IMG/VR virus record: IMGVR_UViG_3300017598_000612
Coordinates: 1-45,754 of that record
DNA length: 45,754 nt
Direction: 5' to 3' (one strand)
Source: a virus
The notes under the pieces were generated by a model, which saw only the letters and a program-made list of their open reading frames with translations, did no database searches and had not been told where the DNA came from. Both the position numbers and the translations under genes were made by a program. Shown piece by piece: positions 1 to 14,861 of the stretch (within the stretch, counting starts at the first letter, position 1; each line of letters begins with the position of its first letter).

Positions 1-121
1 CAAAACCTCTCCCTAAATTAACAAAGTAACAGCCTAATATTATACATACACATTAGACTTTGTCAAGACCTTTTTTACCGTGGATCTCAAAATAGAGCAG
101 AAATATACAATTTGAAAGTGA
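1..121. repeat. Terminal direct repeat, left copy
   Basis: The first 121 bases are identical to the last 121 bases (45634-45754). The copies include a promoter and the 3' end of the gene at 53-703. An exact repeat of this short length at contig ends is typical of an assembler closing a circular or terminally redundant genome, giving a unit of 45,633 bp. It could instead be a genuine short terminal repeat of the virion DNA, which the sequence alone cannot decide. Confidence 0.95.
39..66 (-). promoter_or_regulatory. Sigma70-type promoter of the metallophosphoesterase gene
   Basis: Leftward TTGACA (66-61), 16-base spacer, TATAAT (44-39). The same promoter lies at 45672-45699 in the right terminal copy and reads into the gene starting at 45632. 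The -35 box sits inside the last codons of the gene at 53-703, so promoter and coding sequence overlap. Confidence 0.85.
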
Positions 122-703
122 ATGATATACACTAAGGAACCCACTTTCATCTTTATGACATGTTTCAAAAAATTCACCATCGTCGTCGTATGTATGCCTC
201 ATGTGTGATGCGAAATATCTCTGCTGTGCATTCTCCAATTTCTTCCAAGGATCGAATCCATATTTCTCATCTGCACCGTATTCTAAAACTTTTCTAACCT
301 CAGCCAGTGACTCAATTAAGTCTATGCCGTGCTTCTCTATAAGTCCAAGATAAGCATTCGCCCAGAAGTAATTCTTATTGGCAGTTATAGCCTCAAAACA
401 CTCAATTGGGATAAGATCCCACCTCGTTTTACCCTCATCAAATTTATACTTATGGTAGTCATCTTCCTTTTCTATTACATCAAAATCAAGCCACTCTTTT
501 TTCCAATAATGATTACTGCAAGAATACTCATAGTCTGTATGAATATCTTCACTTACATGAAGAAATTTACCACAATAATAAAACATTCTATTAAAGAAAC
601 ACCCGCAATCACAGCAGAAATCACCATCTTCATCAACACCTTTAACACCTAAATCCTTGAGAAGCTTTAAAATCTCTTCTCTACTCTTAACCCTAACTTT
701 CAT
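53..703 (-). CDS. dATP/dGTP pyrophosphohydrolase domain protein (DUF5664-like) with Cys-rich N-terminus
   Basis: This 216-residue protein has two parts. Residues about 1-85 hold a Cys-rich segment with four cysteines near residues 30-45. Residues about 88-205 resemble the phage dATP/dGTP diphosphohydrolase family (DUF5664): a KFDEGKTRWDLIP entry, EVRKVLEYGADEKYGFDPW, then RYFASHMRH and a HSLSNCIFLLYFE helix whose acidic and histidine residues suit metal-bound nucleotide hydrolysis. Family members remove pyrophosphate from dATP or dGTP and may adjust nucleotide pools during replication. The ATG follows a GGAGGGAG ribosome-binding site behind its own promoter at 734-761. Function is inferred from family resemblance. 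Confidence 0.7.
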   Translation of the reverse strand: MKVRVKSREEILKLLKDLGVKGVDEDGDFCCDCGCFFNRMFYYCGKFLHVSEDIHTDYEYSCSNHYWKKEWLDFDVIEKEDDYHKYKFDEGKTRWDLIPIECFEAITANKNYFWANAYLGLIEKHGIDLIESLAEVRKVLEYGADEKYGFDPWKKLENAQQRYFASHMRHTYDDDGEFFETCHKDESGFLSVYHSLSNCIFLLYFEIHGKKGLDKV

Positions 704-733
704 AACTCCCTCCTAAATTAAAACACTCCTATA

Positions 734-761
734 ATTGTACTCGTATTTTTGGAATTGTCAA
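734..761 (-). promoter_or_regulatory. Sigma70-type promoter
   Basis: Leftward TTGACA (761-756), 16-base spacer, TACAAT (739-734), lying between the terL stop and the gene starting at 703. The leader then reads TTAATTTAGGAGGGAG before the ATG, a leader form shared with the genes starting at 41362 and 45632. Confidence 0.8.
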
Positions 762-772
762 GAAATAATTTA

Positions 773-1999
773 TTAGAATAATCTTTTGCCTGGCCTTGCG
801 ATCTTTCTACCCCTGAAATGCGTATAAAGTGCATACCTAACAGCGTCCATACAATCATCATTTTCTTTTTTAGGTTGCTCTTTTTTGTTTTTGTCGTCCC
901 ATTCATACGCATATACTTCCTGCATGAAGTGTGGAGCCGCACCCTTTAAAACAAAAAACTTCTCATCTTTCATATACTGCTGAACCAATTCAATGCCTTC
1001 AATTACATCTTTTTTGCCGTTTTTGGCTCTGAATCTTCTTACGTACTCAGGTCTTGCTGTATCTGCATAGAAAACGATACCCCTATACTGTTTCATTATC
1101 TCTTTACGTTTAACATCCCACCAGTCGATCTCTTGATGTCTAGCGGCTACTTCGTGGACTAAATACACATTACCATCATGATCTACACCGAACACTACAA
1201 TCGAGCCATAGTGATCGTAGCCCCAATCAACACCACCAATATAAAACTTAAATTCTGGAACTGTATCCACAATAAGCTTATCTCTAAAACTGGTATAAAT
1301 TACACCATCGCTTGCAACCCATTTACCATGAATGGTTCTATCTTTCCTGAAACCATCTGGCATAGACTCGCTTAAACTTTCAATGTATTTATCTGGAACA
1401 AATCCACTATTACTTTTTGCATTATCCCATATATCGAAATGCCACGATTTAACTCTAATTGTACCGTCGTCAAATAGCGCACCATCCTTATCCACAAACT
1501 GTGTTTTAATTGGATGAGTAGGGTAATCAGGGTTGGTATCAAAGAACACTCTAGCACCCTCTCCTGAACATCTATTGAATGCTTCCTCTAAACTATTCTC
1601 ATGGTGTAATGTTACTTCATTACCAAACAGCCCATAAGCAGTCATTCCACGCATTGCCTTATATGATCCATAATTATCTGCACCAAACACACAAACAGTA
1701 TTACCAAATAGTTTAAACTCATTGTTTTTGTTGAGATCTACATTTAAGCCAAAAAAAGACTCTAAATCATCCAAACAATTCTTTTTAAGTGAAGCTGAAG
1801 TATAGCCAAGCATTAGAAATTTATAGCCCTTATTCTTAAATTTGAGTATATGATTAAGCCATAAAAACAACATGATAAAAGTTTTACCTGACCTAACTGA
1901 TCCTTCTAATATAGTTATAAATGGCTCATGTTTTTGGTCATATTCCCAGACTTGGACTTGTTTTTTATTGAATTTGCTAGATAGCTGTTTAATACTCAA
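773..1999 (-). CDS. terL: Terminase large subunit
   Basis: This 408-residue protein is the ATP-driven DNA packaging motor and headful nuclease. The N-terminal ATPase has a Walker A motif GSVRSGKT at residues 33-40 and a probable Walker B region around YGLFGNEV. The C-terminal RNase H-like nuclease shows GGVDWGYD, VHEVA, FYADTARPEY and a final DDCMDAVRYAL, supplying the acidic metal ligands. Length fits the PBSX/Terminase_6 class. The only sensible start is TTG at 1999, two bases after the stop of the preceding gene, so translation may be coupled. It works with the small subunit at 3768-4136 and the portal at 39387-40817. Confidence 0.95.
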   Translation of the reverse strand: MSIKQLSSKFNKKQVQVWEYDQKHEPFITILEGSVRSGKTFIMLFLWLNHILKFKNKGYKFLMLGYTSASLKKNCLDDLESFFGLNVDLNKNNEFKLFGNTVCVFGADNYGSYKAMRGMTAYGLFGNEVTLHHENSLEEAFNRCSGEGARVFFDTNPDYPTHPIKTQFVDKDGALFDDGTIRVKSWHFDIWDNAKSNSGFVPDKYIESLSESMPDGFRKDRTIHGKWVASDGVIYTSFRDKLIVDTVPEFKFYIGGVDWGYDHYGSIVVFGVDHDGNVYLVHEVAARHQEIDWWDVKRKEIMKQYRGIVFYADTARPEYVRRFRAKNGKKDVIEGIELVQQYMKDEKFFVLKGAAPHFMQEVYAYEWDDKNKKEQPKKENDDCMDAVRYALYTHFRGRKIARPGKRLF

Positions 2000-2001
2000 T
2001 C

Positions 2002-2256
2002 TTAACCCATTTCGTGTAGAATTATGTGTAGATGTTCTCTATCAGCTAAAGCATTTAATTCGGGACCGCTGAATTTTATTTGCTCTTTTAATAAATATTC
2101 ATATAAAGATATGTCAGGTTCATGTCCATTATAAGTGTTGTTGCGATTTAGTTCGAAATAAAATAACACATATGTATTATCCTTGAGAACAAAACTAGCC
2201 TGCATATCACACCCAGTAAAATGAAAATGTTTTAAGAATGATATTTGTTGTTTCAT
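2002..2256 (-). CDS. Hypothetical protein, 84 residues
   Basis: I do not recognise this protein. It begins MKQQISFLKHFHF after an AGAGGTAAC ribosome-binding site and mixes aromatic beta-prone segments (YVLFYFEL) with a charged C-terminus. No transmembrane helix or Cys cluster is visible. It ends two bases before the TTG start of terL, so it is co-transcribed and possibly coupled with it. Confidence 0.75.
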   Translation of the reverse strand: MKQQISFLKHFHFTGCDMQASFVLKDNTYVLFYFELNRNNTYNGHEPDISLYEYLLKEQIKFSGPELNALADREHLHIILHEMG

Positions 2257-2271
2257 GTTACCTCTTAACGC

Positions 2272-2529
2272 TTATTTTAAGCGTATATTCTCTTTAATAA
2301 ATATTTGCCCTTCCTCTGGTATCTTATCCTCAAAAATAATACTATCATAAACATGATCATTGCAAAATTCTATATTACCCTTAAACACATGATAATTGCA
2401 CCCGTAAAACCTAACCCTATCAGCAGCGTGGTTTCTTTTATAATAATCTATATACTCTTTGTAAACTAGATAATTTAACCACACCACTAATATTTTTTTT
2501 GTCTTTCTCAAACTTTTTCTTTTAAACAT
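2272..2529 (-). CDS. Hypothetical basic protein, 85 residues
   Basis: I chose the ATG at 2529 because AGGAG lies six bases upstream; the longer reading frame runs back into the preceding gene without a better site. The protein opens with a very basic stretch (KRKSLRKTKK), then a hydrophobic and aromatic segment (ILVVWLNYLVYKEY), and ends in a mixed charged region. It could associate with membrane or nucleic acid, but no family is recognised. Confidence 0.7.
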   Translation of the reverse strand: MFKRKSLRKTKKILVVWLNYLVYKEYIDYYKRNHAADRVRFYGCNYHVFKGNIEFCNDHVYDSIIFEDKIPEEGQIFIKENIRLK

Positions 2530-2677
2530 TTTCATCTCCTCTACACGGCACAAAACTATCACAAGTGCCATCCTTATTTGGTTCAAAATTACTCCAAGGC
2601 TGCCACATGCTATCTGGCTTGCATTTACGCCAACAACCCAGCTTACACTCAGTATTCGAGCATTTACACAAACTCAC
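2522..2677 (-). CDS. Small Cys-rich protein, probable zinc binder, 51 residues
   Basis: The GTG start at 2677 overlaps the TGA of the preceding tiny gene (GTGA arrangement). The 51-residue product has seven cysteines, including CKCSNTECKLGCWRKC near its N-terminus and CDSFVPC near its C-terminus. This pattern fits a metal-bound knuckle. It overlaps the next gene by eight bases. No named family is recognised. Confidence 0.65.
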   Translation of the reverse strand: MSLCKCSNTECKLGCWRKCKPDSMWQPWSNFEPNKDGTCDSFVPCRGDENV

Positions 2678-2736
2678 AACACACCTATAGTAATAGCTAA
2701 GCAAACAATAGATATAACAAAAAGTAACTCATCCAT
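2674..2736 (-). CDS. Membrane micro-protein, 20 residues
   Basis: A 20-codon frame, MDELLFVISIVCLAITIGVL, is almost entirely one transmembrane helix. The ATG follows GAGGTGACAA, overlaps the end of the gene before it, and its TGA overlaps the GTG of the next gene. The tight chaining of starts and stops is the main argument that it is translated. Function unknown. Confidence 0.55.
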   Translation of the reverse strand: MDELLFVISIVCLAITIGVL

Positions 2737-2869
2737 TTGTCACCTCACACTTACATGGTGAATGTTTAATTTCCTCTAGCTCAATAATTGTGCCTAACAC
2801 ACTAATTATAAGAAGGAAAGAAAGTATTATCGACATCATAATTAATCCCACTTTATCATCTTTATTCAT
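2729..2869 (-). CDS. Single-pass membrane protein, 46 residues
   Basis: The product starts MNKDDKVGLIMMSIILSFLL, giving a short charged N-terminus and a hydrophobic helix over residues about 8-27, followed by a soluble tail with a CKC motif. The start overlaps the TAA of the previous gene (TAATG), with GGAGG upstream. It belongs to a string of tiny genes before terL. No function can be assigned. Confidence 0.65.
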   Translation of the reverse strand: MNKDDKVGLIMMSIILSFLLIISVLGTIIELEEIKHSPCKCEVTNG

Positions 2870-3099
2870 TACCGCATCCTCCTAATTTTATCTAGTATCT
2901 GATGTAGATACATAATCTCGCTTGGCGCGCTCTCTTGAGAATGACGATTAATAAAACTCTCTAGTGTCCATAGTTCATGCCGGTCAAGTATAATCGCTTT
3001 ACGCTCTTTCTCTTTCTTGTCAGCTTGTTTATCAAGTAACACGTCAGCTAACTTTTTCACTTCGTGTTTTGGTAGATCTTTGTTTTTGATTTTAACCAT
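2869..3099 (-). CDS. Hypothetical charged protein, 76 residues
   Basis: This Lys/Glu-rich, mostly helical protein begins MVKIKNKDLPKHEVKK after an AAAGGAGAGTAAA ribosome-binding site and ends in a second helix (IMYLHQILDKIRRMR). It has no membrane segment or Cys pair. It is coupled to neighbours by an overlapping stop. It may be a small DNA- or protein-binding adaptor, but no family is recognised. Confidence 0.75.
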   Translation of the reverse strand: MVKIKNKDLPKHEVKKLADVLLDKQADKKEKERKAIILDRHELWTLESFINRHSQESAPSEIMYLHQILDKIRRMR

Positions 3100-3100
3100 T

Positions 3101-3376
3101 TTACTCTCCTTTCCTAATTAATTTAACATCATATTCATCATCTCCGTGTTGTTCTATTATTTTTAATATTGATCTGCATTCCTCACATGCAAAAAAATCT
3201 CCTTTTTCTACATCCATATATATGTCTGAATTTTTATTACATACAGGACAATTAAAATATTCGCTCACAACCTCACAACAAACCTCACAACATATCCTAC
3301 CTTTAACATAAATTTTGAATTCCTTCACCTCTGTACTCACATCCATAAATAGATATTTACCCTGTTCTGCTTTCAT
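3101..3376 (-). CDS. Zinc-ribbon protein sharing its N-terminus with the head fibre
   Basis: I chose the ATG at 3376, eight bases after GGAGA; a GTG two codons earlier is too close to that site. Of 91 residues, the first 16 (MKAEQGKYLFMDVSTE) match 14 of 16 residues of an internal segment of the LamG protein at 30371-31609. The rest holds Cys pairs, CCEVCC then CPVC and CEEC, typical of a double zinc ribbon. The N-terminal block looks copied from a structural gene, or both proteins share a small binding element. Function unknown. Confidence 0.75.
   Translation of the reverse strand: MKAEQGKYLFMDVSTEVKEFKIYVKGRICCEVCCEVVSEYFNCPVCNKNSDIYMDVEKGDFFACEECRSILKIIEQHGDDEYDVKLIRKGE
3329..3376. repeat. 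48-bp segment duplicated at 30524-30571
   Basis: By eye, 39 of 48 bases agree with 30524-30571 in the same orientation. Here the segment encodes the first 16 residues of the zinc-ribbon protein, ending exactly at its ATG; there it is internal to a LamG head-fibre gene. Most differences in the coding part are silent or conservative, as expected for a copied and then selected segment. Confidence 0.75.
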
Positions 3377-3387
3377 TCTCACTCTCC

Positions 3388-3609
3388 TTAAAATATAATA
3401 ATTTTACCTTGATTAACATCTTGCGACCTATATATCTTAACCCCACATATATAGATATACTTTTTTGATTTTGGGCTAAGATTTAATAGTTCCGCCTCAT
3501 TTTTTAACTGCTCATAATCACCGTTGTTTATTATTGCATTTATTGCGTGATTACAACTAAAAAAAGAGACTATACCGCCCAAGCTGACTTCATATTTTTG
3601 CTCTCTCAC
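3388..3609 (-). CDS. Hypothetical protein, 73 residues
   Basis: The start is GTG, with AGGAGAG just upstream. The sequence combines a short hydrophobic N-terminal part (GGIVSFFSCNHAINAIINN), a charged middle and a beta-prone end with two further cysteine or basic clusters. No family is recognised. It lies in the tiny-gene string between terS and terL. Confidence 0.65.
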   Translation of the reverse strand: MREQKYEVSLGGIVSFFSCNHAINAIINNGDYEQLKNEAELLNLSPKSKKYIYICGVKIYRSQDVNQGKIIIF

Positions 3610-3618
3610 TCTACTCTC

Positions 3619-3753
3619 CTACATCATGTAATTAAAACTAAAAATTGCCGTGATTGCGCCCAGGATTATACCCACCTCGACACCGATAAGGAACACATTT
3701 AAATCAAAACTTTCTTTGGTTTTCTCTTTACGTACTCTTCTTTTTAAAAACAT
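3619..3753 (-). CDS. Single-pass membrane protein, 44 residues
   Basis: The ATG follows AAGGAGGGAGAG directly after the terS stop. A basic N-terminus (MFLKRRVRKEKTK) precedes a hydrophobic helix over residues about 20-42 with glycines (LIGVEVGIILGAITAIF). The basic side predicts that the N-terminus stays in the cytoplasm. It is short for a holin but could be a holin-like or membrane-modulating peptide. Confidence 0.65.
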   Translation of the reverse strand: MFLKRRVRKEKTKESFDLNVFLIGVEVGIILGAITAIFSFNYMM

Positions 3754-3767
3754 CTCTCCCTCCTTAA

Positions 3768-4136
3768 TTAGTCATCATCTCCCATCGCCTTCAACAGCTC
3801 CTCAGCTTTATTTTCAGGCGTATCTATATTGTGCACCACCTGACGATCTACTAACCCATGATTAGCCTTTAAAAGAAATATCGCCATAGTTGGATTCCAC
3901 TCAGCTTTTAACCCTTTCTCCATTAGTGAATTCTTCTGTAATGCCTTGATTCTTTTTACTGTTACGGAAAACGCATTATGAATCTTACGCCATTCATTCA
4001 CAGTATCGATATTTATCTTAAGATGTAAAGCTAATCCTTCAGTAGTTGCTAATTGATCACTTTTCTCAATCTTATCAACATATTCATCAGCTTTTTTCTG
4101 TAATTTTTCATTGTATTTTGTAGGTCTTGCCATCAT
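3768..4136 (-). CDS. terS: Terminase small subunit
   Basis: The protein recognises packaging DNA and delivers it to TerL. It starts with ARPTKYNEKLQKKADEYVD, then a predicted helix-turn-helix (TTEGLALHLKINIDTVNEWR), followed by the family-typical KNSLMEKGLKAEWNPTMAIFLLKANHGLVDR and an acidic tail. I chose the ATG at 4136, near GGGGGC; ATGs at 4133 and 4145 are alternatives. A strong promoter ends about 40 bases upstream. The separation from terL by eight tiny genes is unusual, as the two normally adjoin. Confidence 0.9.
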   Translation of the reverse strand: MMARPTKYNEKLQKKADEYVDKIEKSDQLATTEGLALHLKINIDTVNEWRKIHNAFSVTVKRIKALQKNSLMEKGLKAEWNPTMAIFLLKANHGLVDRQVVHNIDTPENKAEELLKAMGDDD

Positions 4137-4175
4137 AGCCCCCATTCAGTCTATGCCCAATTAGTAACTTAAACT

Positions 4176-4204
4176 ATTATACACTATTTATTATCATTTG
4201 TCAA
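4176..4204 (-). promoter_or_regulatory. Consensus sigma70-type promoter of terS
   Basis: Leftward TTGACA (4204-4199), 17-base spacer, TATAAT (4181-4176): a perfect match to both consensus hexamers with the optimal spacing. It should drive terS and the genes down to terL. Confidence 0.9.
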
Positions 4205-4225
4205 ATAAAAGATGAAAGAAAGCTA

Positions 4226-4247
4226 ATGTCGCCATTTATAACGACAT
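4226..4247 (-). terminator. Hairpin downstream of tRNA-Tyr, possible terminator
   Basis: On the leftward strand ATGTCG and CGACAT form a 6-bp stem around a 10-base loop, followed by a T-rich but interrupted tract. It lies 40 bases beyond the tRNA 3' end, where a terminator or processing stem would be expected. The tract is poor, so this is a weak call. Confidence 0.3.
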
Positions 4248-4287
4248 CGAATACTACTTCTACATCTTGGTAGATTAGCTGGAAAAA

Positions 4288-4372
4288 TGGTGCGGTGCCT
4301 TGGACTTGAACCAAGAGTGTCTTAAGACGGGAGATTTACAGTCTCCTGAGTTACCAATTACTCTAACACCGC
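4288..4372 (-). tRNA. tRNA-Tyr (anticodon GUA)
   Basis: The leftward strand folds as a full class II tRNA. The acceptor GCGGTGT pairs with GCACCGC, followed by discriminator A and an encoded CCA. The D-arm is GAGT/ACTC, the anticodon stem GGAGA/TCTCC around CTGTAAA, the variable arm is long, and the T-arm CTTGG/CCAAG encloses TTCAAGT. The long variable arm is normal for bacterial tRNA-Tyr. Phage tRNAs commonly support translation of AT-rich late genes. It lies directly downstream of a strong promoter and a terminator-like hairpin, with the first tRNA base only three bases after the U-tract. Confidence 0.95.
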
Positions 4373-4375
4373 ATC

Positions 4376-4416
4376 AAAAAAATAGGGTGCACAGTGGAGA
4401 GATACTGCACACCCTA
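4376..4416 (-). terminator. Strong intrinsic terminator or attenuator before tRNA-Tyr
   Basis: In the leftward transcript, a 13-bp stem (4416-4404 with 4395-4383, two G-U pairs inside) closes an 8-base loop AUCUCUCC and is followed by seven uridines (4382-4376). This is a textbook intrinsic terminator. It lies between a consensus promoter and the tRNA, so tRNA transcription must read through it or come from some other start. Confidence 0.8.
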
Positions 4417-4446
4417 AAAGGAGAGAAGGAGTTTCATGAAAAAACT
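4376..4446 (-). ncRNA. Candidate small RNA with C/U-rich anti-Shine-Dalgarno segments
   Basis: A near-consensus promoter (4480-4453) and an intrinsic terminator (4416-4376) bracket a transcript of roughly 70 bases without a leftward open frame. The predicted single-stranded part contains ACUCCUUCUCUCCUUUU, and the terminator loop shows AUCUCUCC. Both are complementary to ribosome-binding sites such as AAAGGAGAGAA. This is the design of known C/U-rich trans-acting small RNAs. The alternative is an untranslated leader of tRNA-Tyr carrying an attenuator. I inferred the start point from the -10 position. Confidence 0.5.
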
Positions 4447-4452
4447 ATATAT

Positions 4453-4480
4453 AGTATACAGAAGATTCTCCATTTGTCAA
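4453..4480 (-). promoter_or_regulatory. Sigma70-type promoter of the small RNA/tRNA-Tyr unit
   Basis: Leftward TTGACA (4480-4475), 16-base spacer, TATACT (4458-4453). No ribosome-binding site or open frame follows before the terminator hairpin, so the product is RNA only. Confidence 0.85.
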
Positions 4481-4521
4481 GTATTATTTTTATTTAAAGA
4501 CTGATTTTACTTTGAAATACT

Positions 4522-4962
4522 TTAGAAAACTTTCCTTTTCTGCAACGCAACAATAACTTTTTTCACCTTTTTAACGTACTCTGGATCGACTGCATACCTA
4601 TATTTTACCAAACTACTATAAAAGCCATCCACACTGGTCAAGTACCCTTTGCCTCTAAAATGCTCTAGCATGTCAATATTCGCCTCATCAAACGTAGAAT
4701 ACTGCTTCATACACTCAATTGGTTTGCTCTTTGATTGACACTCTTTCCAACTAATCTTTTTGGAGTAGTAGTTTTTATATTGATTATGATAACTACTAGT
4801 ATACCAGGCTGATTCCAGTACAGTCATTGCAGTTATTATTTTTGCAGCATCAGAATACTCAGTATTTTGGTAAAAATCGTAAATTTTTTTCGCCTTCTCT
4901 CTATAGTCACCGTGCAAAAACACCGTAAACAATATTATTATAATTGCCATTAGTTTTCGCAT
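4522..4962 (-). CDS. Exported glucosaminidase-like peptidoglycan hydrolase
   Basis: The 146-residue protein begins with a signal sequence (MRKLMAIIIILFTVFLHG). Its mature part resembles the FlgJ/Bax N-acetylglucosaminidase fold: a helix with AAKIITAMTVLESAWYTS, whose E50 is the likely catalytic acid, then a QYSTFDEANIDMLEHF segment and a C-terminal DPEYVKKVKKVI helix, as in family members. It would cut glycan strands in the periplasm during lysis. A second muralytic enzyme at 6605-7150 lacks a signal. Two Cys in the middle could form a disulfide after export. No typical wall-binding domain is present. Confidence 0.75.
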   Translation of the reverse strand: MRKLMAIIIILFTVFLHGDYREKAKKIYDFYQNTEYSDAAKIITAMTVLESAWYTSSYHNQYKNYYSKKISWKECQSKSKPIECMKQYSTFDEANIDMLEHFRGKGYLTSVDGFYSSLVKYRYAVDPEYVKKVKKVIVALQKRKVF

Positions 4963-4967
4963 AAATA

Positions 4968-5120
4968 TTACTCGCTAAATCTATCAATTATTAATTCCCA
5001 AAAACATTCCCTCTCTGGATTAATTAAACATACCGCATTCTGCAACTCTATGTCACTAAATTTCTCCTCCCTTGATAACCTGCATGGATACTCGCAACTA
5101 CTACATATATATTCATTCAT
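4968..5120 (-). CDS. Small Cys-containing protein, 50 residues
   Basis: The ATG has an ideal AGGAGGTAATT upstream and the frame ends six bases before the hydrolase gene. The product opens MNEYICSSCEYPCRLSREEK, with a CxxC plus two later cysteines, a likely single zinc site. No function is known. Its place in a lysis cluster may be incidental. Confidence 0.7.
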   Translation of the reverse strand: MNEYICSSCEYPCRLSREEKFSDIELQNAVCLINPERECFWELIIDRFSE

Positions 5121-5129
5121 AATTACCTC

Positions 5130-5561
5130 CTAAAAAATTATTGGTCTATTATTGTGCTCAAATCGCCTTATATTTTCATCGCCACAATGCTGTTGAGACT
5201 TACACTCATCTAAATTATATATACAACCCATCGGTATATCAATTCGCGTTAAAACATAATCATGTCTATCAATTTGATAGCTTCCCCCCCTCCAATCAAC
5301 TACGGTATTATCAACTTTAATGCCGTTTTCACGCCATAAATTATATTGTTCGACTGCCTCATAATTCGACAATATATAGCAACCACCATCATCACTAATA
5401 TAGCCTATATCTGAATGATAACCAAGCTCATTTTTGAAACCTATACATAAATTATTTACTATATCAACGCACAATTTTAGTACATACTTATCGCTCTCAA
5501 GCCTTTCTATTGTATCACCTAACTCTTCGTACTTCTTTTTCAAATCACTTAAATTGCTCAC
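5130..5561 (-). CDS. Hypothetical coiled-coil protein, 143 residues
   Basis: The GTG start follows AGGAGGTAATT. Residues about 4-30 form a heptad-like coiled coil (SDLKKKYEELGDTIERLESD). The rest is a mixed domain with a GYISDDGGCYILSNYEA stretch and several cysteines near the C-terminus. No catalytic motif or membrane segment stands out and I recognise no family. Confidence 0.75.
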   Translation of the reverse strand: MSNLSDLKKKYEELGDTIERLESDKYVLKLCVDIVNNLCIGFKNELGYHSDIGYISDDGGCYILSNYEAVEQYNLWRENGIKVDNTVVDWRGGSYQIDRHDYVLTRIDIPMGCIYNLDECKSQQHCGDENIRRFEHNNRPIIF

Positions 5562-5570
5562 AATTACCTC

Positions 5571-5753
5571 CTAAATACTATACCGTTCACACGCATCACC
5601 CACGCCATTATTATTGTTGTCTTCCTGCGCCTCGTTAGGCACACTTGGACAGTTATCAACCTGATTTGCAATGCCGTCATTATCTGCATCACGAATAGGG
5701 TTATTAATACTGCAACCGATTAAAAACATTACTAAAATTAAACTAATCCTCAT
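5571..5753 (-). CDS. Secreted lipoprotein with a thrombospondin type-3 repeat
   Basis: This 60-residue protein has a type II signal peptide, MRISLILVMFLIGC, with the lipobox cysteine at residue 14. A single calcium-binding thrombospondin type-3 repeat follows: DADNDGIANQVDNCPSVPN and then DNNNNGVGDACE, with the two expected cysteines (35 and 55). It should be lipid-anchored and face the periplasm or cell surface. TSP3 repeats are common in bacterial outer-membrane proteins but unusual in phages. It lies among lysis genes, so it could act as an o-spanin substitute or exclude superinfecting phages. Function is inference. Confidence 0.8.
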   Translation of the reverse strand: MRISLILVMFLIGCSINNPIRDADNDGIANQVDNCPSVPNEAQEDNNNNGVGDACERYSI

Positions 5754-6417
5754 CTATAACCCCTATTATCTTTGAACCGTTGATGGGTTCGAGTAATTCA
5801 AAATTACTAAGAAAATCTTCAGCCGTCCAAAATACATCATTATCATTTTCAAATGAAACTGTATCTAAAATTACATATTTTTCCTCGCCTACCACCTTTG
5901 CTCTTTTCCCCCAAAACGTCTTGAACTCCTCAAAGTTCTTACACGCCCTATATTTAGGCTCAGGTTTTTCAAAGCTGTCTGTTTCTGGGAGATATTTTGT
6001 AGCTGGGAAATTACGCTCCTTGAGACTTATATATTTATTTCTAAAAAAAATTTCTGAAAACACATTTAAACTGCTTTTTACGGAAGAGTTTATAAATTCA
6101 TATCCATAGCGCTCTGCTATCTCAATTAATTCGCTACTTTGTTTACAATAAAACAACTTATCTTCTTTCAGTGCCTTTATGAAATTATCTCTCCCCTCGT
6201 ACACTATCTCAGTGTATTTTTCTTTGTCGGAGGGGAGGATTAACTGACAACATTCATAACTTATGCCCCCTGCATCTACAACAAATGGATATTCATCACC
6301 CGGACAATATTCATGCAACCTATCAACATTTGGCTTATCGCTATAGTCCTTATCCCAAAAAAAACAAGGCACTTCGTCTTCAGCAGCCTTCTTCCAATTC
6401 ACCACTTCTTTTCCCAT
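5743..6417 (-). CDS. Hypothetical protein, 224 residues
   Basis: A soluble, acidic protein beginning MGKEVVNWKKAAEDEVPCFFWDKD after GGAGGTGATGAA. It contains several aromatic and cysteine residues in the first half and a C-terminal section (FWTAEDFLSNFELLEP) suggestive of a small alpha/beta domain. It overlaps the lipoprotein gene by 11 bases and the preceding gene by 19. I do not recognise a family. Confidence 0.8.
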   Translation of the reverse strand: MGKEVVNWKKAAEDEVPCFFWDKDYSDKPNVDRLHEYCPGDEYPFVVDAGGISYECCQLILPSDKEKYTEIVYEGRDNFIKALKEDKLFYCKQSSELIEIAERYGYEFINSSVKSSLNVFSEIFFRNKYISLKERNFPATKYLPETDSFEKPEPKYRACKNFEEFKTFWGKRAKVVGEEKYVILDTVSFENDNDVFWTAEDFLSNFELLEPINGSKIIGVIDED

Positions 6418-6608
6418 TTCATCACCTCCTTATTATTTTCATTAAACTCTTCCATCTCTTCAAGAATATTCCTGAAATTTTCTATTATGTGCTCAGGAAT
6501 TAAACTGTCAATATTTGTAATGTCTGTTTCTATCACGGAACCTCCACTTTCTACCCTTAATTCAAGAATTTTATCATTTATATTGTTTAGACTAAAATTA
6601 ACACTCAC
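6399..6608 (-). CDS. Hypothetical acidic protein, 69 residues
   Basis: The GTG start lies six bases after GGAGGTGA and overlaps the endolysin stop. The protein has a beta-prone N-terminus and a Glu/Asn-rich helical C-terminus (FRNILEEMEEFNENNKEV). It lies between the endolysin and an unknown gene with overlaps on both sides, so it is part of that transcript. Function unknown. Confidence 0.7.
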   Translation of the reverse strand: MSVNFSLNNINDKILELRVESGGSVIETDITNIDSLIPEHIIENFRNILEEMEEFNENNKEVMKWEKKW

Positions 6609-7150
6609 TTCATCACCTCCTTGTAAAATTCCTTGCTACAATCTCTTACCCTTTTCAACCATCCCCCTAGAAATTTTCTATTGTTATTTATCGTTGATAT
6701 ATCTCTGTAGAAAATCAACCTGCTTGAATAATACTTAATGTATACCATCTCTGGATTGCTCTTTATTGCAGCCAATGTAATCGGCCCAATAATCCCATCC
6801 TGTTGCACCTTGGCTATCTTCTGTAACGTACGAATAGCTTTACCTACACCGGCATTGACCGCAAAATCAAACACGTGAAGCGCAAGCAATGGATGTATAT
6901 TAATTAAATCTTTACCTGCAATTCTTGAATAGTAATTACCAAAATAAAACTGCTCAACTATGCCTTCAAGATCTTCATAGATCTCGCCTTTAGTAGGGTT
7001 TCTATCATCCAGGTATTTCCAAATAATACACCCTGGATGGTTGCGTCTGGAAATACCTCTGTAAGTCTCCCATCCATTATCATCTGGATCTTTAACGTAC
7101 CCGCCCTCATTCTTGAGAGAAATCCTTAAAAATATTAAATAATCCATCAT
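6605..7150 (-). CDS. Endolysin, GH108 family with C-terminal peptidoglycan-binding domain
   Basis: The 181-residue enzyme carries the GH108 signature NEGGYVKDPDDNGWETYRGI near its N-terminus, with E15 the likely catalytic glutamate. The C-terminal half has the pattern of PG_binding_3 domains: VFDFAVNAGVGKAIRTLQK and QQDGIIGPITLAAI. GH108 enzymes cleave peptidoglycan glycan strands as muramidases. No signal peptide is present, so release to the cell wall should depend on a holin. The ATG overlaps the preceding stop (ATGA). It is most likely the main lysis enzyme. Confidence 0.9.
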   Translation of the reverse strand: MMDYLIFLRISLKNEGGYVKDPDDNGWETYRGISRRNHPGCIIWKYLDDRNPTKGEIYEDLEGIVEQFYFGNYYSRIAGKDLINIHPLLALHVFDFAVNAGVGKAIRTLQKIAKVQQDGIIGPITLAAIKSNPEMVYIKYYSSRLIFYRDISTINNNRKFLGGWLKRVRDCSKEFYKEVMK

Positions 7151-7440
7151 ATCATCCCCACTATTTTTTTGACTTTATCGAAAATATTTTCATCGTCAAC
7201 AGTGTATTTAGTTGGTATTTCACTAATAATTTCCCTTAGTGCTAAAATCTCTTTTTTCAACTTTTCTTTGATTTTAGAGTCACTTTTCTTAGCCTCCAAA
7301 TTAGCAACCTTAAACGATTGCAATAATCTCAACGATTTTCTGCATTCAAAAAGCTCCTTCTGGAGTTCCAGAATCTCAATTTCCAAGTTTAGGTTTTCAT
7401 CCCTTAACCCGTCAAGGTCATCAAAAAATTTATCATTCAT
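7147..7440 (-). CDS. Coiled-coil protein, 97 residues
   Basis: Residues about 10-75 are a continuous heptad-rich helix (ENLNLEIEILELQKELFECR followed by KSLRLLQ and a Lys/Glu stretch). There is no membrane segment or signal peptide, so it is not a spanin of standard type. It starts after GGAGGTGTAGTT and its stop overlaps the endolysin start, implying coupled translation. Function unknown. Confidence 0.75.
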   Translation of the reverse strand: MNDKFFDDLDGLRDENLNLEIEILELQKELFECRKSLRLLQSFKVANLEAKKSDSKIKEKLKKEILALREIISEIPTKYTVDDENIFDKVKKIVGMI

Positions 7441-7442
7441 AA

Positions 7443-7670
7443 CTACACCTCCACATTGCCAAATTCATCAATCCTAAACCTAATCTTCCAAGGGGAAATA
7501 TTACTCTCTTCTGGAACTGATTGCGATTTATAGTATCCCAATTCCAAAAGGTCATGAAGACAACAGAAACCGTTATCTTCATCAAGCTCAGTCCATGCCC
7601 TACAGTTAACCGTACGGCATTTTTTATTATACTTAGGACAATCAAGTTGCCCAGCTTCCAATGTATTCAT
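7443..7670 (-). CDS. Cys/His protein, probable zinc binding, 75 residues
   Basis: I chose the ATG at 7670, five bases after AAGGAG, rather than a frame opening nine codons earlier. Cysteines in CPKYNKKCRTVNC and later CCLHD suggest a metal site; the C-terminus is beta-prone (KIRFRIDEFGNVEV). It is the first gene after the promoter at 7723-7750 and heads the lysis transcript. Confidence 0.75.
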   Translation of the reverse strand: MNTLEAGQLDCPKYNKKCRTVNCRAWTELDEDNGFCCLHDLLELGYYKSQSVPEESNISPWKIRFRIDEFGNVEV

Positions 7671-7722
7671 AGTAACTCCTTTTTTGCACGATAACAAGAC
7701 TTATGTTACTGTGCATAATCAT

Positions 7723-7750
7723 AGTTTACTTATCAATTAATCTTTGTCAA
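7723..7750 (-). promoter_or_regulatory. Sigma70-type promoter of the lysis gene run
   Basis: Leftward TTGACA (7750-7745), 16-base spacer, TAAACT (7728-7723). The -35 box lies inside the last codons of the gene at 7737-7892. The -10 is less perfect than in the other copies. Confidence 0.7.
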
Positions 7751-7892
7751 GAACTTTTTCATAATAATTTTTAGAGTTGTCTCTAAACCCTATTTTACTA
7801 GGTGTTCCAAACCATTCTACATCTACACTCTCCAGATTATTTACCCATAAAAAATGGGCTAAATCAGTAATATCCTGCCAGTTAATCCTCAT
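7737..7892 (-). CDS. Hypothetical protein, 51 residues
   Basis: I chose the ATG at 7892, which overlaps the end of the pentapeptide gene by 11 bases; the longer frame only extends inside that gene. The product begins MRINWQDITDLAHFLWVNN and ends in LDKD, whose codons double as a promoter -35 box. The ribosome-binding site is weak, so expression may rely on coupling. No family is recognised. Confidence 0.6.
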   Translation of the reverse strand: MRINWQDITDLAHFLWVNNLESVDVEWFGTPSKIGFRDNSKNYYEKVLDKD

Positions 7893-8244
7893 GTGACGTA
7901 CCAAACACAGCTCTAGTAAAATCGCAACCAATTACAATAGAATCCTCAGTAGTTGCATCGACCATAATTGCATTACTGAAATTAGTATAAACCAATCTAC
8001 AATTTTTCATGGTTGCAGCTAACATAATTGCACACCTGAAATCTGTATATTCCAGGTTGCAGCAATCTAAATTTGAGTTAATCAACATGGTTCGCGACAT
8101 ATCCAAACCAGATAAATCACAACCCGACAGATCAACGTCATTTAGGTCAATATAGCCATCCTTAAAAAATAACTCCCTGTAGCGATCCCACAACCGTTTA
8201 TCGCCTCTTTTTAATACTGCTACTAATTTTTCCTTAGTCATCAC
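7882..8244 (-). CDS. Pentapeptide-repeat protein
   Basis: This 120-residue protein has, after a short helical N-terminus, repeated five-residue units of the A(D/N)LXX type: DLNDVDLSGCDLSGLDMSRT, then NLDCCNLEYTDF and later NFSNAIM and CDFTRAVF. Such repeats form a right-handed quadrilateral beta-helix. Some bacterial members mimic DNA and bind gyrase; phage members are mostly uncharacterised. It has its own promoter at 8274-8302 inside the helicase gene. A role in protecting gyrase or in replication is possible but not shown. Confidence 0.85.
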   Translation of the reverse strand: MMTKEKLVAVLKRGDKRLWDRYRELFFKDGYIDLNDVDLSGCDLSGLDMSRTMLINSNLDCCNLEYTDFRCAIMLAATMKNCRLVYTNFSNAIMVDATTEDSIVIGCDFTRAVFGTSHED

Positions 8245-9263
8245 ATCCCTCCTTTAGAATTATTGATAATCATAGTATAACCCTCATAACTGACTTTGTC
8301 AAGCTCTTTTATTTGCGCTTTCCAACCAAAAAACGCATAGTAAACAAAACCGTGACTACTGCCGCCCTTATTTTTAACTAAATGCAATTCAATAACTGGG
8401 TTGTAAATAGGATTATTTATGTCACCTGTTTGGTATACAGCGTCAGTTTTTCCACCTGCAGAGTGATATTCATTGTGAACTAAAATAATAACTGTTGCGT
8501 CATATTGCAAACAGTTAGAGTTCTTAATATCATCTACGGCAGGTCTCCCATATGTACCTGTTTTTTTAAACTCAGTTGTCATAACAATTGGAATATTTAT
8601 CTTAGTTGATAACTCCTTCAATCCATTGCTCATATGCATTACAGATTTGACCTCATCAGTAAACTTATTGTTTCTAATTTTATGGAAATTATCTATAAAT
8701 ACAACCAGATTTTCGTCATCTTCAAGATCTCCATTAGAGGACATAATTTCCTCAACTATATCATCATAATCTACCATGTCAGCAGCATCTATAATTTGTA
8801 AATTATCTGATTTACCAACTAGTTTTTCGACGCCTTCCAACATTTTTTTATAATAATTATCATATTTCTCCGGCTTATTTGCCTTAACTCTTCTAGGAAA
8901 ATTGACATCATTAATGCTTTGACTAGATTCGTTGGATAATAAACGATTGATAATCATACTTGCACTATCATCAATGGAAAAATATACAATCTTAGTTTTT
9001 GGATTATGGGACAATATACCAAGCATTAAATTAATAAAAGTCATGGTTTTGCCATGATGAGACCTACCACCAAGAGCTATCACACCAGGTTGTAAACCAT
9101 CTAATCTGATATCTAGTTCGGGAAACCCTGTTTTTAATCCGATTAACTCACCCGTTCTATTCGCCGCTACGGTCAAAAACTCTTCAACCCTAGTCTTAGT
9201 ACTCGGAAATCGTTTTTCGTTCATCACGGCTGCGAGAGTATCTAATTTAGTATCTTTAGTCAC
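8241..9263 (-). CDS. Replicative DNA helicase, DnaB/RecA-type ATPase
   Basis: I chose the GTG at 9263 because GGGAGG precedes it; a TTG start 14 codons earlier lies deep inside the loader gene. The 340-residue protein has a Walker A motif GGRSHHGKT at residues 65-73, Walker B VVFIDNF at 187-193, and a KLSTKINIPIVMTTEF-type motif with later DIKNSN, as in DnaB C-terminal domains. The N-terminal DnaB domain is very short, so this is a compact phage form. It should unwind the fork together with the loader and organiser upstream in the same transcript. Confidence 0.88.
   Translation of the reverse strand: MTKDTKLDTLAAVMNEKRFPSTKTRVEEFLTVAANRTGELIGLKTGFPELDIRLDGLQPGVIALGGRSHHGKTMTFINLMLGILSHNPKTKIVYFSIDDSASMIINRLLSNESSQSINDVNFPRRVKANKPEKYDNYYKKMLEGVEKLVGKSDNLQIIDAADMVDYDDIVEEIMSSNGDLEDDENLVVFIDNFHKIRNNKFTDEVKSVMHMSNGLKELSTKINIPIVMTTEFKKTGTYGRPAVDDIKNSNCLQYDATVIILVHNEYHSAGGKTDAVYQTGDINNPIYNPVIELHLVKNKGGSSHGFVYYAFFGWKAQIKELDKVSYEGYTMIINNSKGGM
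8274..8302 (-). promoter_or_regulatory. Sigma70-type promoter within the helicase gene
   Basis: Leftward TTGACA (8302-8297), 17-base spacer, TATACT (8279-8274). It lies wholly within the 3' end of the helicase gene and reads into the pentapeptide gene, whose GGAGGGATGTG site follows. Confidence 0.8.
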
Positions 9264-9564
9264 AATCAAACCTCCCGCTTTCAAACTGTTTCTTCTGAAT
9301 AGCAAATTTTTGTTCTTGTTCTACTTTTTTCACATATTGTAAAACTTTTGCCAGATTGGGTGTACGCTCTTCCTGTTCCATACACAATTCTATTGCAGTA
9401 ACAATAGTTTTGTTGGTATATATACCAAGCTTGCTGTCCCATAACTTCAGCACCATATCTTTACCAGCTTCATTCTCCATGTAACTAGCTGGAAATGGCA
9501 TATAACCAAACGCTATATGGATCATGGAAAATATTTTTCTATAAAACTCTCTAGGTTTTTTCAT
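9256..9564 (-). CDS. Probable helicase loader
   Basis: This 102-residue helical protein has a pattern seen in phage helicase loaders of the P/G39P type: LKLWDSKLGIYTNKTIVTAI followed by EERTPNLAKVLQYVKKVE. Its place between the replisome organiser and the DnaB-like helicase is the classical order. It would deliver helicase to the melted origin. Similarity is by eye and modest, so position is the stronger argument. It overlaps the helicase GTG by eight bases. Confidence 0.6.
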   Translation of the reverse strand: MKKPREFYRKIFSMIHIAFGYMPFPASYMENEAGKDMVLKLWDSKLGIYTNKTIVTAIELCMEQEERTPNLAKVLQYVKKVEQEQKFAIQKKQFESGRFDCD

Positions 9565-9572
9565 ACTCCCTC

Positions 9573-10229
9573 CTAAAAATCAAGCAATGTTTTCTGACCA
9601 CCACTTTTAGTTTCCTCTTTTTTAAACCATGTTAATGCAGCCGCATAATGGCTCTTATACTTTCTCCCTTTTTGCTCAATATAGATATCGATACGCTCAA
9701 TCATGGATATGGTTTTTTCTGTTCCAAATCTGTCAACTAATTTCTGATATTCTGAGTCAGTCATTTTCACGTGGTTGAATTCACCATAACTTTTTTTGGA
9801 TTCTTTTGTAATAACGTAGTTATTATTTTCTTTATTATTATTCTTATTATTCTTAGTATGTGTTGATGGCGTGTTAGATGGCGTGTTAGATGGCGTGTTA
9901 GTCAACTGGTATTTATCCCAATTAGTTACTGAAATCACTGTATATTTTTTACTTCCTACCTGTGTTAGTTCGCGTGTTAGTTCGCGTGTTGATTCTAATT
10001 TGCTTAAAGCTGTACGAATACGCTGTATTGTTAAGCCTGTTTTTTTGGATAAACTTGAATAACTGGTGATAAATGATCCTTTTTTAACTGTGATTCCTTT
10101 CCATATTTTCTCTTCATAATTAGCTCTTAATATTATGTGTATAAATAATAAAGATACAACAGGGTCTTCTATCCACTCCCATTCTAACATTGATCTGTGT
10201 AGTTTGATGAAGCCTGTGTTGAGTGACAT
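9573..10229 (-). CDS. Replication initiator, phage replisome organiser
   Basis: The 218-residue protein opens with the phage replisome-organiser winged-helix domain: GFIKLHRSMLEWEWIEDP, then WKGITVKKGSFITSYSSL and a helix-turn-helix ending in a VTNWDKYQ strand. A Thr/Pro/Ser/Asn-rich linker with repeated SNTP units (residues about 113-135) leads to a C-terminal domain with YKSHYAAALTWFKKE. Such proteins bind iterons inside their own gene and recruit loader and helicase. The linker and the preceding TREL repeats are encoded by tandem 12-bp DNA repeats. It is expressed from the promoter at 10301-10328, with a palindrome in the leader. Confidence 0.85.
   Translation of the reverse strand: MSLNTGFIKLHRSMLEWEWIEDPVVSLLFIHIILRANYEEKIWKGITVKKGSFITSYSSLSKKTGLTIQRIRTALSKLESTRELTRELTQVGSKKYTVISVTNWDKYQLTNTPSNTPSNTPSTHTKNNKNNNKENNNYVITKESKKSYGEFNHVKMTDSEYQKLVDRFGTEKTISMIERIDIYIEQKGRKYKSHYAAALTWFKKEETKSGGQKTLLDF
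9860..9997. repeat. Iteron-like tandem 12-bp repeats, candidate replication origin
   Basis: Two clusters of a 12-base unit beginning GTGTTAG or GTGTTGA lie inside the initiator gene: about four units at 9860-9906 (GTGTTAGATGGC type) and three at 9962-9997 (GTGTTAGTTCGC type). An AT-rich run lies beside the first cluster (9800-9858). Iterons inside the initiator gene next to an AT-rich unwinding stretch is the arrangement of lambda-like origins. The repeats also encode TREL and SNTP peptide units, so protein-level repetition is an alternative reason for them. Confidence 0.6.
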
Positions 10230-10246
10230 GTTGCCCTCCCTCTTAA

Positions 10247-10266
10247 AGTTAACAAAGACGTTAACT
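10247..10266. promoter_or_regulatory. Palindromic operator candidate in the initiator leader
   Basis: AGTTAAC, six bases, GTTAACT form a perfect inverted repeat just upstream of the initiator ribosome-binding site and downstream of its promoter. A second perfect palindrome, TCTGGCCAGA, follows at 10271-10280. Their place between promoter and gene suits autoregulation by a dimeric repressor or by the initiator itself. The binding protein is unknown. Confidence 0.5.
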
Positions 10267-10300
10267 CTACTCTGGCCAGAGAGAGAGCAACATCCCTATT

Positions 10301-10328
10301 ATTATACCATAAAGTTATTAATTGTCAA
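10301..10328 (-). promoter_or_regulatory. Consensus sigma70-type promoter of the initiator gene
   Basis: Leftward TTGACA (10328-10323), 16-base spacer, TATAAT (10306-10301). The -35 box overlaps the last codons of the gene at 10318-10602. Confidence 0.87.
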
Positions 10329-10602
10329 ATGTTTTTTTAAGCATCTCATTATGCTTATTTTCCAGAAACTCTTTTGCCTCTTCAGGTGTCATAATTTCAT
10401 CCCTAGCAAGAGGTTTTACAGTGGCCTCTGTAATGTTATTAAGAAATATAAAAACCTCCTGTTCACCGTCCTTATTGTTTATAACAATATGACCGGTTAT
10501 ATACCTTGACATAATGTTGCTCCTACTACCGGAAACCTCTTTTCTTAAAAAGATTTGGTCTCCAATTTCTAGCCCTTTCTCAATTTCATACGTTTTCTTC
10601 AT
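10318..10602 (-). CDS. Hypothetical protein, 94 residues
   Basis: A soluble protein starting MKKTYEIEKGLEIGDQIFLRKEV, beta-rich in its first half (YITGHIVINNKDGEQEVFIFL) and helical with acidic residues at the end. The first half resembles a small barrel, but no family is recognised. It lies in the early leftward operon from 10874; its ATG overlaps the preceding TGA and its C-terminal FDN codons contribute to a promoter. Confidence 0.8.
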   Translation of the reverse strand: MKKTYEIEKGLEIGDQIFLRKEVSGSRSNIMSRYITGHIVINNKDGEQEVFIFLNNITEATVKPLARDEIMTPEEAKEFLENKHNEMLKKTFDN

Positions 10603-10679
10603 GATAAACTCCTTAAAATTAAAAATACTAAAACACCTGTTATAATAGCTGTTCCTATTATAACCTCTAAATATTTCAT
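10599..10679 (-). CDS. Membrane micro-protein, 26 residues
   Basis: The frame MKYLEVIIGTAIITGVLVFL plus six residues is one transmembrane helix with a short basic tail. GGAGGGTATT precedes the ATG; start and stop each overlap a neighbour by four bases. Its codons contain a perfect 10-bp inverted repeat, GTTATAATAG / CTATTATAAC, with a 6-base loop (10639-10664). Function unknown. Confidence 0.65.
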   Translation of the reverse strand: MKYLEVIIGTAIITGVLVFLILRSLS

Positions 10680-10813
10680 AATACCCTCCTGCAATTCTTT
10701 ATAGGGTAGCCCCTACCATAGCTGTCATAATCCCATATTGTTTGTCCATCGTTCGAAATTTGACCATTAAATACATGGTCTTTAAATATTCCCTTAATTA
10801 CTCTGAATTTCAT
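10676..10813 (-). CDS. Hypothetical early protein, 45 residues
   Basis: This is the first gene after the leftward early promoter at 10847-10874. GGAGGGCGCC precedes the ATG, and the stop overlaps the next ATG. The product begins MKFRVIKGIFKDHVFNGQIS and is polar and basic, with several Tyr/Gly near the end. As a first-transcribed phage gene it may target the host, but no homology is recognised. Confidence 0.7.
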   Translation of the reverse strand: MKFRVIKGIFKDHVFNGQISNDGQTIWDYDSYGRGYPIKNCRRVL

Positions 10814-10846
10814 GGCGCCCTCCAAAATAAATAACCTACTCTTACA

Positions 10847-10874
10847 ATTGTACTCATTGAATTAATTCTGTCAA
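10847..10874 (-). promoter_or_regulatory. Leftward early promoter of a divergent pair
   Basis: TTGACA (10874-10869), 16-base spacer, TACAAT (10852-10847), reading left into the 45-, 26- and 94-residue genes. Its -35 lies only 25 bases from the -35 of the opposite promoter, so the two could be controlled jointly. Confidence 0.85.
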
Positions 10875-10899
10875 ATGTTTTTTTTATTTTTATTTTCAC

Positions 10900-10927
10900 T
10901 TGACAAATATTAATTTATCAGTACAAT
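10900..10927 (+). promoter_or_regulatory. Rightward early promoter of a divergent pair
   Basis: TTGACA (10900-10905), 16-base spacer, TACAAT (10922-10927), reading into the primase module. The same hexamers and spacing occur in the leftward partner at 10847-10874. Confidence 0.88.
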
Positions 10928-10955
10928 TATATTATCATTATTAATGGAGAGTAAT

Positions 10956-11213
10956 ATGAAAATTAAGGATCTAACTTTTACACCAGCAAAATTTGGAAAT
11001 TACGATAATGTCATTTATGGGTGTAATATTAATAATCTTAGAATTACTGTATTAGATAGGATGACATTTGCTGGCTATAGAGAAACAGAGACTGGATTTC
11101 GTGATATTAATGGCGGTTTTTGGCTTGTATCAGGTGGTTTTGATATAAGATGTTACCCAGAATTAGAATTATGGGAAGCTATAGAATTAATAAAAAGGAA
11201 TAGTACGTTATGA
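10956..11213 (+). CDS. Hypothetical protein, 85 residues
   Basis: I chose the ATG at 10956, following GGAGAGTAAT, over an upstream ATG lacking a site. The product begins MKIKDLTFTPAKFGNYDNVI and is beta-rich and aromatic (GGFWLVSGGFDIRCYP). Its stop overlaps the primase start, so the two are probably coupled. It could be a primase accessory factor, an inference from position only. Confidence 0.75.
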   Translation: MKIKDLTFTPAKFGNYDNVIYGCNINNLRITVLDRMTFAGYRETETGFRDINGGFWLVSGGFDIRCYPELELWEAIELIKRNSTL

Positions 11214-12100
11214 TAACAGTTTCCTTTGGGGAATCAATAAAAAAACCTGACCAAATATTCAAATATGGATCACTGGAATCATTACTCCAATGGCAAGCAT
11301 ATAGCGAAAAACAGGAACAGAAAATTGAAGACTTGCAAAAAGAAACTGATCCAGATAAACGCAAACTAATCAAAAATCAATTACCATACATTGTTGGCTC
11401 TGTATTTAGCCCAGAAAAACGAAAAGCTAAAAACCTGAAAAATAGCAACTTAATGATTTTTGATGTAGATAAAATTGATAATGTTGAGGAGTTGTTCAAT
11501 ACGCTAAAACGTGAACCATTTATATGTTTTATTTTCAGATCACCTTCTGGAAATGGCATTAAATTTGGTATAAAATTAAAACAAAATATTACTGATCCTG
11601 ATCTGTTCAGCAAGGTATATAAATATGCATCAAAAAAGTTGTCCAATTTTTATGGTATAGAACTGGATAAAACAAGTGACTGTAGCCGTGCGTGTTACCT
11701 GGGGAACGATCCCAACTATTATTATAATCCAGTTAGTGTTGGATTTCCAATCAAATATGATATTGAAAAACCTGTTCAACAATTTACTGCAGAATTTGAA
11801 AACGATCCTGACATAGAATTACAAATAATTAGAGAAATTTGTCAAACAATGAACGTTGGTAATTACCAGGACTGGGTCACGTGTGCGGCTGCACTTGCTA
11901 CGCTAGGCGGTATAGGTGAGGATCTGTTTATAACATTAAGTACTGGTAAGGGCTATAAGGATTCTGTTTCGTCACTAAGGCGTAAATTCAAGAGTTTTAG
12001 CTCAAGTGGTGGTGTGCAAATAGGATCATTTTTTCATATTGCAAAAGAGAACGGTGTGGATGTAAAGGAGATAAAAAGGAGGTTTTATGAAAAGCATTAA
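11210..12100 (+). CDS. Archaeo-eukaryotic-type primase (BT4734/VirE-like) with PriCT-2 domain
   Basis: The 296-residue protein has the three signature regions of this primase group: LMIFDVDKI with the metal-binding DVD at residues 85-87, RSPSGNGIKFGIKL at about 110-123, and DKTSDCSRACYLGNDP at about 153-168. A C-terminal helical region (YQDWVTCAAALATLGG, then LSTGKGYKD) matches PriCT-2. It should synthesise primers for the phage fork and replaces a DnaG-type primase, which is absent. It overlaps the neighbouring genes on both sides, giving an operon with the resolvase downstream. Confidence 0.85.
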   Translation: MITVSFGESIKKPDQIFKYGSLESLLQWQAYSEKQEQKIEDLQKETDPDKRKLIKNQLPYIVGSVFSPEKRKAKNLKNSNLMIFDVDKIDNVEELFNTLKREPFICFIFRSPSGNGIKFGIKLKQNITDPDLFSKVYKYASKKLSNFYGIELDKTSDCSRACYLGNDPNYYYNPVSVGFPIKYDIEKPVQQFTAEFENDPDIELQIIREICQTMNVGNYQDWVTCAAALATLGGIGEDLFITLSTGKGYKDSVSSLRRKFKSFSSSGGVQIGSFFHIAKENGVDVKEIKRRFYEKH

Positions 12101-12479
12101 ATTGACACTTCCTACCTATATAATAATGGGTGTTATAAAGATTAGGAAATATCAACTTAATTTCAACAACTATCATACCTGGCACTTCCAAGTAAGGAAC
12201 AAACTGAAAAAGATGTTTGAAGCCTCAATTTTATCACAGATAAAACAAATACCACCTATAAATAAAATAATATCAATTAAATATAAAATTTACCACAAGA
12301 CTAATAGGAAATTTGATGTTAACAATAAGCTTGTACTTATAGACAAGTACTTACAAGATGTACTAGTTAATAATGATATAATAGAGGATGATAATTATAA
12401 CTTTATTCAGCATACAGAGTTCCAATATGGTGGTAAAAAAGAAGAAGATTACGCCACTGCTGAAATTTTTTACACATAA
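12087..12479 (+). CDS. RusA-like Holliday junction resolvase
   Basis: The 130-residue protein shows the RusA hallmark: conserved aspartates in KFDVNNKLVLIDKYLQDVLV followed by NDIIEDDNYNFI. Family members bind metal through these aspartates and cut four-way junctions symmetrically, here before packaging. GGAGG precedes the ATG inside the last 14 bases of the primase gene. The first fifteen residues are hydrophobic and not typical, so an internal start is possible. Confidence 0.8.
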   Translation: MKSIKLTLPTYIIMGVIKIRKYQLNFNNYHTWHFQVRNKLKKMFEASILSQIKQIPPINKIISIKYKIYHKTNRKFDVNNKLVLIDKYLQDVLVNNDIIEDDNYNFIQHTEFQYGGKKEEDYATAEIFYT

Positions 12480-12535
12480 ATCTAGCAATAAAATCAATCA
12501 CTTATAATTATTTTGCATTTTTCTTTATAAAACAC

Positions 12536-12922: not shown

Positions 12923-12932
12923 GGAGATAATT

Positions 12933-14850: not shown

Positions 14851-14861
14851 GGGAATTTATC

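Follow-up and report, generated by a model that had tools for sequence, protein, structure and literature searches.

A strictly conserved promoter-terminator unit beside the terminase genes of two related phages is a putative C/U-rich small-RNA gene

Directly upstream of a tRNA-Tyr gene, the phage genome analysed here (45.75 kb; the whole stretch is referred to as the window) contains a short region enclosed by a promoter and a terminator. We wondered if this region is a gene for a small RNA and, if so, which messages such an RNA would act on. Features of the locus are listed in Table 1. The window has identical 121-bp ends (positions 1-121 and 45634-45754), as does the contig of a relative described below; these ends identify a complete circular assembly and are compatible with headful packaging. 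Capsid, portal and terminase resemble those of Firmicutes phages, and the endolysin belongs to a family (Glyco_hydro_108) found mainly in phages of Gram-negative bacteria. Several other genes gave domain matches. The product of gene 53-703 contains a dATP/dGTP diphosphohydrolase N-terminal domain (PF18909, E 4e-14), possibly indicating a nucleotide-pool gene. An Imm-5-like immunity domain (PF21805, E 1.7e-7) is encoded at 34720-35262, within a group of rightward genes surrounded by leftward late genes, and this may be a counter-defence or superinfection gene. At the end of the tail module, 15362-15763 matches prokaryotic phospholipase A2 weakly (below the PF09056 cut-off).

Table 1. Features of the locus and its neighbourhood (window coordinates)
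Feature	Position	Strand	Basis or remark
Glucosaminidase-domain protein	4522-4962	minus	precedes the unit in both phages
Sigma-70-type promoter, TTGACA-16-TATACT	4453-4480	minus	11/12 consensus matches
Predicted RNA, about 71 nt	4376-4446	minus	start inferred 7-8 nt past the -10 box; end at the U-tract
Short 5' stem-loop, AGUUUU..AAACU	4430-4446	minus	predicted fold
C/U motif AAACUCCUUCUCUCCUUU, mostly single-stranded	4417-4434	minus	fold and identity in relative
Terminator hairpin, 13 pairs, loop AUCUCUCC (UCUCUCC)	4383-4416	minus	fold, terminator scan
U7 tract of terminator	4376-4382	minus	sequence, terminator scan
tRNA-Tyr(GTA), CCA encoded	4288-4372	minus	three bases past the U-tract; absent from relative, outside conserved unit
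Terminator-like hairpin after tRNA, 10 bp	4225-4248	minus	terminator scan
terS promoter, TTGACA-17-TATAAT, perfect	4176-4204	minus	promoter scan
Terminase small subunit (DNA-packaging protein gp3 family)	3768-4145	minus	

On the minus strand, the promoter is followed by a C/U-rich leader of about 30 nt, the hairpin with its U-tract and then tRNA-Tyr. A near-consensus leftward promoter, a 13-bp hairpin with U7 and a tRNA starting three bases further on had all been claimed in the first-pass annotation, and each of them was recovered. The hairpin with its U-tract is the strongest terminator-like site within positions 1-20000 of the window. The predicted 72-nt RNA has a folding energy of -23.1 kcal/mol, compared with -7.9 +/- 2.35 kcal/mol for shuffled sequences (z = -6.5; matched by none of 200 shuffles). 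In the predicted fold, the stretch CCUUCUCUCCUUU and the loop AUCUCUCC are unpaired with a probability of 0.9 or more in each of the two phages, leaving C/U motifs complementary to Shine-Dalgarno sequences exposed. UCUCUCC is an exact repeat, with one copy in the single strand and one in the terminator loop. Since the terminator stem holds two G-U pairs, where the other strand would have A-C mismatches, the RNA is expected to read leftward.

Promoter-like sites occur at chance frequency (89 found, 88.7 expected from shuffles), so the promoter alone proves nothing, even though few sites score 11 or 12 of 12. It is conservation, rather than promoter score, that indicates that the unit is real. 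No reading frame within the RNA is conserved between the window phage and its relative; an AUG frame of 7 codons is present in the window phage only. A leader on the opposite strand with Shine-Dalgarno sequence and ATG (AAGGAG..ATG, about 4437) was considered and rejected, its frame of 22 codons being reduced to 8 in the relative.

The relative, IMGVR_UViG_3300017598_000369 (45.4 kb, complete, syntenic), was retrieved with the large terminase as query. Alignment of the two genomes covers 71% of the window at 74% identity, leaving 29% unalignable. Positions 4377-4434 are identical to the relative in all 58 aligned bases, with one extra base in the relative, and form the most conserved 58-nt stretch genome-wide (runner-up 0.983). 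The 41-base exact match in the unit is among the three longest between the genomes; those of equal length fall within called genes or at their borders. The unit occupies the same position in the relative, between the glucosaminidase gene and terS (8186-8290 of the extracted relative sequence). C/U tract and terminator hairpin are identical in sequence and the fold is kept. The 5' stem forms in both phages with a loop that differs in sequence and length, and the C/U motifs stay open. The relative's promoter (TTGACA-17-TATAAT) has the same -35 hexamer, with TATAAT replacing TATACT, and the spacer is not conserved (16 vs 17, bases changed too). Both phages thus keep an own promoter and terminator around a short non-coding stretch, the organization of an intrinsically terminated small-RNA gene. 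The earlier claim of a discrete promoter-RNA-terminator unit with C/U-rich, anti-Shine-Dalgarno-like motifs gains support from this retention, and conservation of both motifs in a related phage, suggested there as a check, is complete. A discrete RNA is likely to be made from the unit. Because only two copies are known, those of the window phage and of this relative, covariation is uncountable.

Other intergenic stretches are well conserved too, and none of them reaches the level of the unit. One example is a divergent promoter region (10814-10955; TTGACA-16-TACAAT on either strand), probably the early control region with operators; it matches the relative at 88% identity across 126 bases, including two 30-base exact matches. 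Among the proteins, a product of 46 aa (42656-42796) with no Pfam family stands out, its identity to the relative's counterpart being 96% and greatly exceeding the genome mean.

Further copies of the unit were searched for in several ways. Three pattern scans of IMG/VR (exact and gapped motifs) yielded no third copy, one narrow pattern yielded none in GTDB genomes, and all motif matches in these two collections beyond the one relative lack the hairpin. Blastn of the unit region against INPHARED returned no match. Profile searches started from TerS, TerL or the glucosaminidase encoded upstream of the unit retrieved no second close relative bearing the unit; in the partial contig L002 (TerL 81%), a different gene precedes terL and the 2.5 kb upstream contain no unit. 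A search of Rfam, at gathering thresholds and at E<=10, detected the tRNA and a chance-level LhrC match only. In 3.5 Mb of retrieved sequence, a total over both strands, the combination of CUCC in a terminator loop with CUCC upstream is found only at this locus in both phages.

Comparison with the relative also bears on the tRNA. The first-pass annotation had suggested that the hairpin might also gate tRNA expression; such a gate would control read-through into tRNA-Tyr. The three bases between U-tract and tRNA leave no space for a second promoter, and the tRNA of the window phage therefore depends on read-through or on upstream transcripts; probably it is expressed via read-through. However, ARAGORN detects no tRNA in 21 kb around the unit of the relative, so the unit is kept without the tRNA. 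Moreover, terminator and tRNA fold separately in a joint fold, with no alternative antiterminator. As a conserved function, gating is largely refuted and we consider it extremely improbable, although it may be a side effect in the window phage. Retention without the tRNA indicates that the unit is an independent RNA gene that stands alone and is under selection by itself. To judge from the same comparison, tRNA-Tyr adjoins the unit in only one of the phages and was gained or lost independently of it.

In both phages the unit heads the leftward terS-terL-portal operon, a position that raises another explanation. Lambdoid pR' promoters give a short transcript under control of Q. Similarly, polymerase might halt at the hairpin until a phage antiterminator permits it to proceed into terS and the genes for packaging and head. 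A strong promoter with a strong terminator close behind would suit such an attenuator leader, as would L002, with its different gene before terL and no unit seen. Against this reading, both phages have a perfect promoter for terS itself immediately behind the terminator; in the relative, this promoter starts a few bases after the U-tract of the small RNA. Q requires that its binding element lie between -35 and -10 (PMC6606751), and in exactly this region the two phages disagree in length and in sequence, unlike what is expected of a Q-dependent late promoter. No antiterminator family was matched among the proteins scanned, which represent part of the genes, and attenuation leaves the conserved part, C/U tract and loop, unexplained. 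We thus regard it as unlikely.

The location next to terS in both phages, together with very high DNA conservation, would also fit a pac- or cos-like element of packaging or replication that acts as DNA and not as RNA; the 121-bp end repeats, circular as assembled and compatible with headful packaging, agree with this. Promoter, U-tract and G-U pairs possible on one strand only nevertheless point to RNA, and in the window phage the tRNA lies between the element and terS, which makes a DNA element very unlikely. Strict sequence conservation and the exact UCUCUCC repeat, in single strand and loop, could alternatively reflect a decoy RNA titrating an RNA-binding protein of host or phage. Such a decoy would carry only two copies of the motif, no known bacterial decoy with UCUCUCC was found and no candidate protein was identified. 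We consider the decoy decidedly unlikely.

We then turn to the messages with which the RNA could pair. C/U-rich RNA pairs with Shine-Dalgarno sequences by nature. Gene starts were called heuristically in both genomes, and every start region was then scored by its longest Watson-Crick match to AAACUCCUUCUCUCCUUUU. The longest matches claimed before do exist: 11 bases (AAAGGAGAGAA) in the start region of the 52-aa gene 44266-44424, whose product has two hydrophobic stretches and is holin-like by eye only, 10 bases at the gene starting at 12621, and shorter matches at genes 40997-41362, 3101-3376 and 2869-3099. Shuffled C/U tracts keeping the two CUCC cores served as control. Matches of at least 9 bases number 6, compared with 3.2 from shuffled tracts (P=0.19), and the result is similar for at least 10 (P=0.25) and at least 11 bases (P=0.32). 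The relative shows no excess (P=0.85-1.0). Permutation of flanks around GGAG cores gave P=0.39 and 0.63, the observed maximum being reached in 39% of cases. In the relative, the match at the orthologue of gene 44266 shrinks from 11 to 8 bases and the orthologue of the 12621 gene has lost its GGAGAG site. The 11- and 10-base matches are thus genuine, yet no more than chance would give (P about 0.25-0.4), and phage genes are not singled out as targets. Of the earlier proposal, the matches themselves stand; targeting of phage messages does not, as their number and length equal those of shuffled tracts and they are shorter in the relative. Target prediction over phage start sites, which had been recommended, gave no excess over shuffled tracts or flank-permuted sites, so complementarity to phage mRNAs is not above chance, in contrast to what is expected of an anti-Shine-Dalgarno RNA acting on them in trans.

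With phage messages not favoured, the likelier targets would be host mRNAs. We therefore lean, with a confidence slightly above even, towards an independent phage small-RNA gene whose RNA of about 70 nt would block selected mRNAs, most likely of the host, by pairing of C/U motifs with Shine-Dalgarno sequences. The RNA would be transcribed from the unit's own host-type promoter and end at its own intrinsic terminator. It would expose two motifs, CUCCUUCUCUCC in the single strand and UCUCUCC in the loop of the terminator, and both could pair with purine-rich Shine-Dalgarno sequences, a step that we judge marginally more probable than its absence. Translation of the paired messages would be blocked. 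Anatomy, conservation and exposed motifs of the unit are in keeping with this reading. Counted against it is that the hairpin is conserved in sequence as well as in structure, more than a pure terminator stem needs. A bolder version, which we find improbable, is that the RNA mimics the anti-Shine-Dalgarno tail of the ribosome with two exposed CUCUCC copies, competing with ribosomes for a class of host messages and redirecting translation during infection. As the most conserved short stretch between two complete genomes, the gene appears to matter to the phage. If the RNA does act on host messages, it would offer a protein-free way to steer host translation. To our knowledge, few phage small RNAs having a separate gene are known.

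Similarities to known systems are partial. The short transcript of lambdoid pR' is likewise terminated before late genes, but here the promoter spacer contains no conserved element and a separate late promoter lies downstream. Phage-encoded trans-acting RNAs have been described, e.g. PreS of lambda and VpdS of VP882 (PMC12197685). These are phage-borne and trans-acting as proposed here; however, they belong to other phages and hosts, and the review mentions neither CU-rich motifs nor terminase. CJnc230 of Campylobacter jejuni uses a short single-stranded anti-Shine-Dalgarno stretch between two stem-loops to block ribosome-binding sites (PMC11187230). It differs in length (98 nt), in its CCUU motif and in being an RpoN-dependent chromosomal gene, and no CU motif was noted in its terminator loop. 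The LhrC family of Listeria (Rfam RF00616) has redundant CU-rich motifs, located in a single-stranded region as well as the terminator loop and proven to bind purine-rich start regions of mRNAs (PMC4132741). In contrast to the phage unit, LhrC RNAs are about 111 nt long, form two large stem-loops, carry UCCC motifs and are chromosomal and multicopy; the unit scores 16.4 bits with the covariance model, whose cut-off is 110 (E = 5.7), and is not a member. It is thus best described as a new RNA family within a known kind; its conservation indicates that it is real, and its function is putative.
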